DNA of 64,000 nucleotides from Rhea pennata (lineage: Eukaryota > Chordata > Aves > Rheiformes > Rheidae): assembly GCF_028389875.1 (NCBI RefSeq), contig NC_084671.1, forward strand, positions 67,001 to 131,000. Reading direction: 5' to 3'. The first letter of the stretch is position 1. Each line of letters begins with the position of its first letter. This document shows, piece after piece, positions 27,901 through 49,045 of this stretch. The position numbers and the translations under genes are program-made. The notes below the pieces were generated by a model. It did not search any database and was not told where the DNA came from. It saw nothing but the letters and a program-made list of their open reading frames with translations.

Positions 27901-30900
27901 GGGCTGAGCACTTTCAATGGTTACAAACCATAGATCTGGGGAAAGGAAGATAACAAACACATCTTCCAGGCATACTTCTCACTGTCAGGAATCAACAACT
28001 CCCCTAACCCCAGAGCAGATGGAAAAAAGGAACAGAGCATTGGAACTCAGAATACTAAGTTTTGAGCAAGGGAAAGCCATAAGGCAGTGTTATCTCACAG
28101 GAAAACTCAACAAGTGAGAAAGGCTTCCCGCCCTGGAAATACACAAGAAAATAACCTCTGCTAGACCCTTTACTGGCTATGGCAGAAGACAAGGAGCCAC
28201 CAGAAGAAATCTCAGGACCAGCGTGAGAAGAAATGAGCACGGACTTTGGTAAGAGGCAGAGAACATAGCCAATTTTCTCATGTAATGTTTAGCTACGATG
28301 AGGTGGAGAACTACTGCTAGAGAATGTAAATGAGAGAAGTAGAGGCACTAGTTTAGAAAACACCTTGATTCACCTTAGAGTGCAATATCCTAAATAACTT
28401 CTTAGGTCACCGCAGAAAGATTTGCAGGGAATAAGTTTACAAACATCTTTTGAAATAACAGTAACTTCACTACAAATTTAAATGACAAACGTAATGTTCT
28501 GAAAAAGTAATCTCAAAACAACAAAAATATTGGAAGTACAAAACGGAAATTTTCATGTTTGGCAGTAAGCACACAATGAACGTGATGCAAAAAAAAGTGT
28601 CAGATCTTGAAGAAAGGTCTACAACGTAACATTAAAATATCTCACTGCTTTATCTGACAGTATTGTATTAAATATGTAAAGCTCATTCACTTTCCCCTCC
28701 AGAGCTGAAAATATCTCCTTTTTTTAGTCAATTTCTAAGAAAGAATTATTTACTTAGATTTTTAGTTTCCAAAAGGAAGAGCTGAATACTTTTACTGGTT
28801 ACAAAACTACTCAGTTGTCAGAAAAAGAAACAAAAGATAAAGCAACAGGCTCTTCCACTGAAAGTCATATTTAATTAATATGCGTCAAAGTCCACACAAA
28901 GATGAGTACCAGATTATGTGTTTTCTCCTGTGCTGGCTTGACATGCTGGGCAGTCTTCTAAATAGTAATTCAAAACGTGCATATTTACACAAAAGTTCTA
29001 GAGAGCGCTCTACAAAATCAAAGTAAACCAAAATTTAATATACCTTTGAACTGGATACCCACTCCTGATCACCCTTCTTCCCATTACTGGAGTCTAATTC
29101 CTCTTCCACGGGACATTCCACCAAATGCTCTACTCGAAGTTCATTCCTACAAAGGGGGCAACTGGCATTTGGCTACAAAAAAAAACAAATCCCCAACCCC
29201 CCCAAACAAACATTATATAAAAAAAATTAATCATAGTGAATACTAAAGATCACCAATATAAAGCACATTTTACTAAGTTACTGTACTGTTATCCATTAAA
29301 AAATCCTCAAGTAGTACATTCTTCCTCATGACCCACTCCCCAGTCACATAACATAATCAAAACAATTACATTTGTTAGAGCATTTAAGGTAGCATGTAAA
29401 TGCTAAAAGTTTTAACAGTACTCAGCTTTCCTTAAAATAAGTCTTTCCTGAGCATATTTATATTTTAAATAGGTAGCTGAAGACTTAAATGCAAGTGAAT
29501 ACTTGGTTTATGGGGAGAAGACTAAACAGACAAAAAAAACAAACCATCTTTTAAAGTGAGGATCATTCTTATTTGTAAGCAAAGAATGAACTTGAACTCA
29601 TTCTGTCTTCATCATCAGCACAGAAATAGTAGTAATTTGATGAAATATGCTTTGTTAAGGTCAGATATCAGACACAGGCTACCAACTTCCCCTTCTCATA
29701 ACAAACATGAGAAATAAGACACAATTTAACACCAACAGCGCTTCTCTCTGAAGCATACATAAACTTCGGCTAAAGCAAAGCTTAGAATCTATGCAATAGC
29801 ACTTTCATGGAACTACACACAAAATTAAGACTGTGTATGGTATACAAATATGCAACTTAGGGAATCAAAAAGATAAATATGAAAAATTTTTGACTAAGAG
29901 CACAACCACTTAAAATTGGTTGACTCAACTTCTACAGCAATCTGCACAGAAGCAGCAAAGCACCTCTCAGAATGCTGATCTGGAATGAACAATAGTTGAA
30001 AGGCCAGCAACCATAGTGTGCACATACAGTATTAGTGCAGCAATAATGATTCCTTTTCAGAAGACAGAAACTGTATCTTGCCTCATTCCTCTTGCCACAG
30101 AGGAATCTGAAATAACAGTCTCCACAAATGTAGCTACAAATGAACATTCCATAATTTGGCAGCAATCCAAACCCCTCTAATGTCAAGAAAAATTAAATAA
30201 AGTCTGACAGATTTGAAAAAAACAGGAAATTTTCAAATCTCCTTCACTACATCAGTGTTTTTTTTTTTTTTTTTTTTTTTCCTCGTATCTTCATGCATCC
30301 CTTCTCGAATTGAGTTCTGGAATTAAAACCAACATAATAACAAAAATGCACATGTACAATGCCAACACAGAAAAGGAGAACTTGCAGTGAATAGATATGA
30401 AAATGACAAAAATATTTTCTCATAATAAAATCTAGAAAAAAAAACCCACATCATTTGATGCTTATCTGGCATGTTTTTAGATGAATACAGTAGATACACA
30501 GAGGAAAGCTCATTAAACTGTTGACCACTGAAAGGTTTTCCAATTTCAATAAATAGTATCAGAAAGATAAAATTACCTTGAAGTTTATAACAAATGAAAG
30601 ATCGATCTTTTTACTCAACAGTTTTGTGCTGGCAGTTTCACATCCCATTCCTCACTGCCAGTTTAATGCTCCCATTTTAATTAATAATGGAAACCATAGG
30701 CTACCATCCTGGCTGGTAGACCTTGTATGGGTTTACACTGTTTTGGAGGTGTAGGTGTGGGCTGGTTTATTGGTTTGCTTTGTTTTGAAGAGGAGATGGC
30801 CAGTAAAGTCCTCTTGGAATCAGTAAGGTTGGAAGGGACCTCTGGAGATCACCTAGTCCAACCCTCAAACAAGTGGCCCATACAGGAATTGAACCTGCGA

Positions 30901-33900
30901 CCCTGGCATTGTTAGCACCACGCTCTAACCAACTGAGCTAAACCTAACCCCAAATCTATGCTAGCACAGAATCAGTAAGGTTGGAAGGGACTGCTGGAGA
31001 TCATCTAGTCCAATCTTCCAAAGATTTCCTGGTGTTGGTTCCACTGGGGATTGAACCCAGGACCTTCAGTGTGTAAAACAAAGGTGATAACCACTACGCT
31101 ATCCCTCTACTCTTCCAAGTTATATACTAGGATAAAGTAACTGCTCTAACCATTCTGTCATAAGAATTACCCAACTGAGATGCAGCCCTAGGACAAATAC
31201 CTACTATATGAAAAGTCAAGTTAATTCTCTTGACTTTGACATTTAGATGTGAGCCAGTATTTCAACTGGAAGATGCAGAAACTCCCCTTAAGACTTGACT
31301 TAAACCAGCAATCATTTTGAACATAGGAACTTGTTCAAATGCTTCCCCTCTATTTTAGAAACTCATGACAGATCCAGAGAAAGTAGAACCTACACTTGCC
31401 CTCACTACTCAGACTTGATTACTATGAATGCAATCTTTGGAACAACGTGAGACTAGACAAAGACTCTAGTTCTGCAAAATCCAAGGTCATTTCCAGGTGA
31501 AGCAAAAGTCTTATTTTCTATGCAAGTAATACATGCCCCACTATAACCTGACTGATTTTTCCACATATCCAGATACTCAAGAAGGTGGCAAGGGTCACTG
31601 ACTCTGGTACAGACACATCAGACACATCAGGAAACTCTACGTAGGAAAAAGGCCTCTGCAAGTGCTCTTTCCTTAGATAATAATTTCACATCACTAGATT
31701 CCCTCAAAATTCTCAGAAACTCCTGACTGGGCCATCTGCATTGGAATATTTGTGTGTGACAACACAAAGAGTAAATTTACATACCAAACACACTACATTT
31801 CCTAGGCTTGACTACATTCAGGCAGGAACTATTTTGCCCTCTGTTGCCTCACAAGAAGTACCACCCAGGTTTAGCCTGGTATTTGCAGCTCTGCCATGTC
31901 TGAGTGGGAGACACACAATTCCAGAGCGGAAATGTGAAAGTGGTGAATACAGATGGTAGAACTACCATACAATCAGATTCCCTCAGAAAGCAAGGGACAA
32001 GCAAGAAAGCAGAATATAGCTTAGAACTGCATGGGAACACATTAAAAAAAGGGGTGGGGGAAGGGTTCCCCCTCAAAAAAGTGGCCAATGGAAGATGAAC
32101 CACAAATTCTGTTCTGGAGGAAGAAAATCTGATGGCCTAAACTGAAAGGCAGCACAGCTCTACATGTTGCAGGAAAGACACTTGCCCACATTTGAGTTCT
32201 GTTCCACACACAGGACATTAATCTGTTAGAGAAGAATAAGGAGAGCAGCTGTTTTTAGTTCAACGGTCAGCTTCCAATATACAGTTTTGGTCCCTTCTAA
32301 GTACAACAAAAATACATGTGCATTATTTCACATGCAAATAATGAAGAAGGATCAAGCCATATAGAGGTATACAACAATGCATTTGATGTCATCACATTCA
32401 CCCAAGGGCTAGAAAAGGTGAGAACCAGGAAAGCACAGGAAAAGGTCTTTGAACATACTGATGGACCTTAACACTGTTCAGTTTGACAGTCCTTAGTTCA
32501 AGTGAAGGCCAACAGTTTTTATACTAGTGGCCAGTGGATGACAAGTTTTAGACAATTTACCAATTATGATTTACAATGAACAACAGCTAGATGGGCTTCC
32601 GCTGGTACCAGTTCTTAATTCTTTTTGAATAGCTATTACAATTAAATGCAACCATAAAATATCCAACCTGTTCACTTCTGATGACTTCATAAATACATGG
32701 TTTACAAAACACATGTGCACAGTGTGTTATCACAGGAAAAGTCAGTGATTCTAAGCAAACTGCACATTCTTCATCTGAACCAGAGTTCAGAACCAACTTC
32801 ATTTTATCGACTAACATCTGACGCAGTTCTTCAGGAGTATTATTACCTGCTAATACAGAAAAACACTTGAAAATAGATATTCCATATAGGAAACTTAACT
32901 GGCACATATTAACACAGTTCCACTGATCAAAACACAATTTTAACAATTTTACACAATAAGGATTTAGCCTACAATTATAAAAACATAAGATGACAAAAAC
33001 TAAAGAAAAATTCTAATTTACTATTTCAAGACATACTAGGAATAATCTTACTTGGAAAAACGGTAACTAGAACTCAAAGAACCTAGACTATAAGCTCAGT
33101 GATGAACGTATGTGTAACATAATGCCTAACGAGATCAAGCAATTTTCACATGGCAGCTGTTTAGGTAGCAATGATATTACTGGGGTGTTGGAAGTCACTT
33201 TATTTATAGTTAAGGCTGCTCAGAAACACTCTTACAAATAAATAAATAAATAATATTTAGCAATTACTAATTGATTTCCAAATAATTATTAAAACAATTA
33301 TTCACTAATTTCTTCAAGCTGTATTTTTCAGAAAGATAAATAGCAGCCACCTAAAAAAATTCAACATCATATTCTCATTAGTCTTTTTTGAAAAAAATAA
33401 CAACTATACTAATGGCATTTCACAATAGGATTTTTTGAAATACTAAAACTATGAACTCTTAAATTGAGTGTTTTAAATAGTATTTAAATACTTACAAATG
33501 CAATACCTTCTTCTGAAAGAAGAAAATGGTATCATTTTTAACACTGTGCAGCAGTACACTTCTGGTTTCTCCCAAAAAGTTCCACGCTCCTTTCAGTTCT
33601 CTGTGTTCACCCCTCCTTATAGCCACAAAAAAAGTCACTAGTTTCCTATTCTGCTGAAGAGTCATCAGATCCTCCGACAATCTACAAACAGCTCTGCCAA
33701 ACTCGTCTACACCTTCTCTCTTGAGGCAAGAAGAAACTTGCAGCAAAAGCACTTCTGTAAATTATTACAACATATACACTGCTTTTTAACAAGCTTTCTA
33801 CAGTCGCCTCTGCAGAGGTCTCACTTCAGTCATTTATATGAGGGGCTGTAAAGGCTTATCACTTCCTGCTTCTAGCCTTTATAACTACTAACACTTCTAT

Positions 33901-48560: not shown

Positions 48561-48654
48561 GACTGTACGGGACAGCTGGGGGCGTTAAAAAATCCACTTG
48601 CAATGGTATAGGACGCGTGCAATTAGCCATAACAGTTCATGGGGTTCCAGAGAT

Positions 48655-49045
48655 CATAGAATCAGTAATGTTGGAAGGGACCTCTGGAGATCATCTAGTC
48701 CAACCTCCCTGCTCAGCAGGGTCACCTAGAGCATGTTAGACAGGGTTGCATCCAGGCGGCCTTGAAGATCTCCAGAGAAGGAGACTCCACAACCTCTCTG
48801 GGCAACCTGTGCCAGTGCTCCGTCACTCGCACAGGGAAGAATTTCCCCCTCACATTCAGGCAGAACTTCCTGTGGCTCACTTTTTGCCCATTGCCTCTTG
48901 TCCTGTCATATGGGACAACTGAAGAGTTTGTCCCTGTGCCCTTGACACTCTCCCTTCAGGTACTGGTACACATTGATAACATCCACCCAGTCTTCTCTTC
49001 CCCAGGCTGAAGAGGCCCAGCTCTCACAGCCGTTCCTCTCTGCTG
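48655..49045 (-). mobile_element. 5'-truncated CR1 LINE downstream of the HLTF island
   Basis: About 390 bases, beginning on the + strand with ATCATAGAATCAGTAATG and GGAAGGGACCTCTGGAGATC, followed by all the blocks seen in the 21191 copy (CCTCCCTGCTCAGCAGGG, GGAGACTCCACAACCTCTC, CCATTGCCTCTTGTCCTG) and ending near CCCCAGGCTGAAGAGGCCC. It contains the 3' UTR and the last few ORF2 codons only. It starts within 100 bases of the end of the HLTF CpG island. Confidence 0.92.

Follow-up and report, generated by a model that had tools for sequence, protein, structure and literature searches.

Birds have few SINEs, and for the two passerine SINEs with CR1 tails in the literature searched a single founder has been proposed. 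These are TguSINE1, with a head derived from tRNA-Ile, and PittSINE, with a head derived from tRNA-Asp, both mobilised by CR1 (PMC5729268). PittSINE has diagnostic tail bases in common with TguSINE1, and its authors derive it from that family (Suh et al. 2017, PMC5729268). Other bird SINEs, as described in the accessible part of PMC4844689, are mobilised by AviRTE and have tRNA-Glu, 5S and other heads. The excerpt available of PMC8665684 cites CR1-mobilised SINEs in some birds only, and the portion available of the tuatara report names CR1-mobilised SINEs there, the single 'tRNAVal' in that portion being mitochondrial (PMC7116210).

The window, by which we mean the whole 64,000-nucleotide stretch of DNA analysed, carries a SINE with a different head, and its features are collected in Table 1. 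The earlier note had described this element as a degenerate tRNA-Val(TAC) head joined through a linker to a CR1 3' end, which was confirmed by an Rfam match and by alignments of copies. It had placed the element at 30969..31108; the element itself stood, but the low end missed the terminal ATTCTGTG by 4 bases, and the high end missed the leader by about 2. The Rfam tRNA match to the head scored 28.9 bits at 31036-31104 on the minus strand (E 0.0011, 1101 bases searched), spanned model positions 1-71 of 71 and lay 0.1 bit below the gathering score; at gathering scores, a search of the whole window listed the neighbouring tRNA-Ile copy as the sole tRNA. ARAGORN called zero tRNA genes in the window. 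The boxes of the head were named by likeness to the A-box and B-box consensus. Taken jointly with the mechanism proposed below, 30965-31110 is very probably a fossil member of a SINE family that is derived from tRNA-Val, mobilised by CR1 and dispersed in the genome.

Table 1 Features of the tRNA-Val SINE, its neighbour and the CR1 copy in the window
Feature	Position	Strand	Basis or remark
Whole tRNA-Val/CR1 SINE copy, derived subfamily	30965..31110	-	Alignment with 39 copies and the consensus of 40 others
5' leader and tRNA-Val(TAC)-derived head	31036..31110	-	Rfam tRNA match at 31036-31104
A-box-like TAGCGTAGTGG	31091..31101	-	Likeness to A-box consensus
B-box-like GGTTCAATCCC	31047..31057	-	Exact B-box pattern present in window copy
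Linker	31014..31035	-	16 nt plus 6 nt (31014-31019) corresponding to CR1 GGGAGG
CR1-derived tail, terminal ATTCTGTG	30965..31013	-	
10-nt spacer separating Val SINE from tRNA-Ile SINE	30955..30964	-	
tRNA-Ile SINE, TguSINE1-like	30817..30954	-	Rfam tRNA 41.9 bits at 30874-30944
tRNA-Ile SINE leader	30945-30954	-	
tRNA-Ile SINE head	30874-30944	-	
tRNA-Ile SINE linker	30862-30873	-	
tRNA-Ile SINE tail	30817-30861	-	
3' end of CR1 copy resembling Val tail; candidate source and helper family	48640..48860	-	

The host genome (1.27 Gb, 180 contigs) was searched with the window copy, and all 40 matches scored among 2033 candidates, the window's own place included, were copies of the element. The 27-bp head-linker junction of the Val family was present at 497 places at up to two mismatches and at 612 places at up to three, with 0 places for the reversed control in each case; by comparison, the 27-bp tRNA-Ile junction was present at 447 places at up to two mismatches. 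The other 39 genome matches, the window's own place apart, formed a first set (A) and aligned across head, linker and tail. A second set (B) of 40 further copies, picked from exact-junction places among the matches listed, gave the same consensus as the first 39, and the leader, head, linker, tail and ATTCTGTG end were common to the Val copies read. An Rfam tRNA match was obtained in 9 of 11 Val SINE copies scanned and an exact B box in 56 of 80 loci, the latter searched over the whole fetched loci. Divergence of set B from the consensus, outside the search pattern, averaged 0.063 (K2P, range 0.020-0.128), and that of the window copy was 0.109. The bird substitution rate is near 2e-9 per site per year, at which a divergence of 0.06 corresponds very roughly to 30 million years. 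Thirteen of the 40 set B copies started no earlier than consensus position 19, in keeping with 5' truncation.

The origin of the tail was assessed by comparison with CR1 and with tRNA-Ile SINEs. The CR1 copy in the window had 40 genome matches at 95-100% identity, itself included, and a CR1 sample of 29 (30 loci cut, the window's own omitted) was selected by likeness to this one copy. The tRNA-Ile SINE sample of 34 comprised 14 and 20 copies from two collections; the 20 were picked by a pattern fixing positions -6 to +4, so that at -6, -4 and -3 just the other 14 count. Tail positions -6, -4 and -3 lie ahead of TTGGACTAG, and 39 and 40 are counted from its start; these diagnostic positions were derived here from copies in this genome rather than taken from the four bases published for TguSINE1. 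The Val tail consensus was the same as the CR1 consensus from GGGAGG through ACTGATTCT, and one base of the terminal repeat differed. The CR1 base at -6, -4, -3, 39 and 40 was found in 37, 39, 40, 38 and 39 of the 40 Val copies of set B, and in 28, 29, 26, 27 and 28 of the 29 CR1 copies. The tRNA-Ile SINEs mostly had other bases at these five positions. The 14 countable copies carried T at -6 (14/14), A at -4 (14/14) and G at -3 (13/14), and were mixed at 39-40 (TA 4, CA 4, CG 3, TG 2, AG 1; taken singly, T in 6 and G in 6), as CpG decay of CCG would give; 17 of the 20 pattern-picked copies had CA there. In Val copies, 39-40 were TG in 39/39, 37/40 and 31/37 of three sets. The 29 CR1 tails diverged from their own consensus by 0.013, which would suggest more recent activity of the CR1 helper, although these were the nearest copies to one query.

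Because the Val tail has the CR1 bases at the five positions, where the tRNA-Ile SINE mostly has others, its sequence points to capture directly from CR1, apart from the tRNA-Ile SINE, as the most likely origin, and the suggestion of the earlier note that another tRNA had independently captured a CR1 tail gained support. Alternatively, the tail could have been taken from a TguSINE1-like tRNA-Ile SINE by template switching, the route proposed for the origin of PittSINE (PMC5729268). The two families co-occur in this genome, have an identical tail core and are alike in divergence when CpG-type sites are left out (0.063 and 0.055), yet the tRNA-Ile states are mostly missing from Val copies at the five positions, where the CR1 states are present, and the tRNA-Ile form TTTGAGGG ahead of TTGGACTAG would need reversion to GGGAGG; we consider this route improbable. 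Far less credible still is a one-off template-switch chimera at the window place with no family behind it, an alternative raised by the earlier note, which had set a single copy in advance as refuting a family. The single-copy outcome was absent, since 40 of 40 scored candidates matched and the junction recurred at 612 places, and 79 further copies aligned in a common layout. Such chimeras may nevertheless occur, as in the locus L168, where a tRNA-Val head adjoins some 1.07 kb of CR1 sequence. At this locus (L168:2700-3920 minus, G000 C1), a head of 61.7 bits is followed by GTGCCA and a 5'-truncated CR1, and the junction was spanned by that place only among 40 scored of 1274 candidates; it is either a chimera or a CR1 inserted beside a tRNA-Val.

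The family might also already carry a name, whether in Repbase, in Dfam or in a repeat library made for some species and left unpublished. With about 600 copies this alike, it should be picked up when RepeatModeler is applied to the host or to a relative. The literature, in the portions available, leads to TguSINE1, PittSINE and AviRTE-mobilised SINEs and to no bird SINE headed by tRNA-Val. It thereby supports the proposal of the earlier note that the family is possibly undescribed, and a prior name seems to us rather unlikely.

Copies with a more complete head were also present in the genome. A pattern for the intact tRNA-Val 5' half was found at 35 places (reversed control 0), 20 of which were fetched and read. 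Eighteen of the 20 loci continued into the CR1 tail, including a single copy that has lost an internal stretch; the 3' flank of L166 likewise opened with a CR1 tail, and L151 continued into a CR1 body. In these early copies GGTTCCATAG was present and GCAGAAGG mostly so, and the leader ended in GTGGT or similar in many. Stages were assigned to 116 copies, made up of sets A and B, 19 of the 20 early loci (L151 omitted) and 18 of the 20 loci of another collection (the tRNA-Val gene L170 and the matchless L188 omitted). The tRNA 5' end was kept in copies with stem base A (23), C (1) or T (2) and replaced in copies with A (6) or T (43), and 41 of the 116 were short or unclassed. Within set B the stem base was T in 33/40 and A in 5/40; because the sets were chosen by different patterns, stage proportions are meaningful within set B alone. 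The simplest reading of these classes is an order from full tRNA to new 5' end to broken stem, and the window copy belongs to the last of the three main stages, with a replaced 5' end and a broken stem.

The early consensus head folded as a whole tRNA-Val cloverleaf (z -2.15), a stability reached by 8 of 200 shuffles. Early copies with a 5' end had Rfam tRNA scores of 66.6 bits (L154), 57.2 (L036), 50.3 (L169), 49.1 (L149) and 31.5 (L109). For 5'-short copies with an A stem base the scores were 30 bits (L180) and none (L182), and for late copies 33.5 (L085), 32 (L116), 29.5 (L106) and none (L099). A stand-alone tRNA-Val(TAC) gene, L170, scored 64.5 bits, matched the early head at 65 of 73 bases and lacked the SINE linker; by sequence it is a candidate only for the parent of the Val head, and no parental tRNA-Val gene with the linker (3' flank like GCGCCAGGAAATC) was seen. 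L154 (159-231 minus) gave the top tRNA-Val score of 13 loci scanned, above the gene L170; its tRNA-Val is joined via GTGCCAGGAGG to the CR1 tail with the usual linker absent, which is either a founder-like form or a microhomology deletion. L177 and L184 have a different 5' leader in common, AGGTTTTT then GTGTACTGG, and are perhaps a further side branch.

The linker was compared, as pieces of 14 to 22 nt and ungapped, with the CR1 3' end and the CR1 body of L168, and matched little or no better than shuffles; the lowest of 15 comparisons, 49 of 500, was for a hand-picked 14-nt sub-piece. Derivation of the linker from CR1 was rejected on these matches at about shuffle level. The linker TTT could be read as the Pol III terminator that closes a tRNA-Val trailer, but this is not claimed, because a TTCG containing a CpG is equally likely in view of the CTTCGGG and CTTCAGG seen in older copies.

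The tRNA-Ile SINE beside the Val copy, which the earlier note had also reported, proved real (Table 1), and the TguSINE1 primer (PMC5729268) matched exactly at 30916-30935, inside it. Pairs in which a tRNA-Ile SINE comes after a Val SINE, both in one orientation, were found at no fewer than 6 places among 40 candidates scored, namely in the window (30817-31110) and in L044, L052, L053, L054 and L055. The distance from Val tail to Ile head in these pairs was 14 to 32 bases, with spacers unlike one another, and the chance expectation of a Val-Ile pair within 35 bases was 0.004 to 0.09, by the copy numbers assumed. A composite Val-Ile dimer mobile as one unit was rejected; since the spacers differ, separate insertions fit better, and the pairs may represent insertion into existing SINE tails. 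A tRNA-Ile SINE lies farther off in L013 and, by flank likeness, in L043 and L083, and L056 and L057 are Ile-Ile pairs. A shorter tRNA-Ile SINE subfamily (GTGCTGCTAATG ... ATGCTGAGGG) occurs in L044, L054 and L056, beside the usual TguSINE1-like form. Val and Ile divergences were 0.063 and 0.089 over all sites outside patterns, 0.053 and 0.038 in the tail, and 0.063 and 0.055 without CpG-type sites; as the order flips with the sites used, no order of age is claimed.

Flanks of up to 150 bases per side were compared all against all for the 116 copies, giving 0 matching pairs on the 5' side and 22 on the 3' side. Eleven of the 22 formed four groups with common sequence directly past the tail: L152, L156, L157, L159 and L182 (8 pairs), L149 and L158, L024 and L083, and L154 and L166. 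Members of the groups sit at unlinked places, and the common stretch is 20 to about 130 bases long. In L152/L156 and L149/L158 it reaches some 115 bases beyond the tail; it is longest in L024/L083, at about 130, and shorter in the other pairs. The other 11 pairs were mostly tRNA-Ile SINEs, CR1 tails or tail repeats, and L040/L107 had one 20-base match outside those sources. About 500 bases of 5' flank gave zero match inside L152/L156 or L149/L158; the last 26 bases of the 5' piece alike in L149 and L152 are the leader and head start. Plain genomic duplication was rejected for L152/L156 and L149/L158 by these roughly 500 unmatched bases, and for the remaining pairs on the up to 150 bases compared. 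This is most simply explained by read-through at a small number of source loci, whose RNAs would have extended beyond the tail and been copied together with the flanking sequence (3' transduction). The 3' but not 5' likeness of the 11 pairs means that the CR1 end is internal in those copies, which conflicts with a strict need for a CR1 3' end, and plain tail-end priming would not give them. Such copies would offer a test of how strictly CR1 needs its own 3' end.

Pol III boxes in the head, a tail of CR1 type and truncated 5' ends suggest that the reverse transcriptase of CR1 acted on the element in trans. The founder would have arisen through a template switch, from a CR1 3' end under reverse transcription to the transcript of a tRNA-Val, in an event probably separate from the TguSINE1 lineage. 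The A and B boxes in the head would direct transcription of the element by RNA polymerase III. CR1 reverse transcriptase would recognise the 3' end, which is of CR1 type and bears ATTCTGTG repeats, and target-primed reverse transcription would copy the RNA into new sites, often 5'-truncated. In later masters the 5' acceptor strand was presumably replaced (GGTTCCA to AGAGGGA), and thereafter one anticodon-stem pair may have been broken (GCAGAAGG to GCTGAAGG). A stem was predicted in the tail alone (z 1.18, 180 of 200 shuffles as stable), and neither the whole Val consensus (z 0.82) nor the window copy (z -0.94) folded beyond shuffles; because the tail folds no better than shuffles, a recognition hairpin would rest on the published CR1 model. 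A search for target site duplications gave no signal over the permuted control, the mean longest shared flank word in 79 copies being 3.42, against 3.51 when permuted. Avian CR1 insertions typically have short or absent target site duplications.

More tentatively, and as a possibility we lean slightly away from, the family could mark another, fully independent origin of a CR1-mobilised SINE among passerines, whose series of steps is still readable in one genome: a CR1-tRNA template switch, a full tRNA-Val subfamily, a replaced 5' end and a broken stem, with new SINE copies tending to land on older SINE tails, as in the Val-Ile pairs. An independent capture with ordered stages would let one ask how often a tRNA hijacks a LINE tail, and the stages could show which steps make a master copy. 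Val insertions would also add to the markers available for the bird lineage in which this SINE occurs.

Compared with described systems, the Val family resembles TguSINE1, of which a TguSINE1-like family is present in this genome, in its tRNA head, CR1-derived tail and ATTCTRTG end. TguSINE1, however, has a tRNA-Ile head and a linker like CACTTGTTTGAGGG, whereas the Val head is tRNA-Val with anticodon TAC, and at the site that reads CTG in Val and CR1 the TguSINE1-like tail mostly has CCA, CCG or forms decayed from these. PittSINE, also from passerines and with a CR1 tail, likewise lacks a tRNA-Ile head, but its head is tRNA-Asp and its diagnostic tail bases are those of TguSINE1 (PMC5729268), in contrast to the CR1 type in Val. 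PittSINE was not found in the genome with its primer, which gave 7 places at up to three mismatches (reversed control 4); the 6 that were read had tRNA-Asp and no CR1 tail in the 120 bases shown. Going by the distribution in PMC5729268, a TguSINE1-like family would point to a passerine host outside the New Zealand wrens, and the negative PittSINE result speaks against a pitta. ManaSINE1 and GymnSINE, as presented in the accessible part of Suh et al. 2016 (PMC4844689), are suboscine SINEs that also have Pol III-type heads, but these are tRNA-Glu and 5S rRNA heads with AviRTE rather than CR1 tails. The tuatara elements tuaCR1-SINE1a/b (PMC7116210), compared by mobilisation mode alone from the part of that report available, are similarly CR1-mobilised in a reptile host. 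Judged against the literature, the Val family is a new SINE family of the CR1-mobilised, tRNA-headed type.
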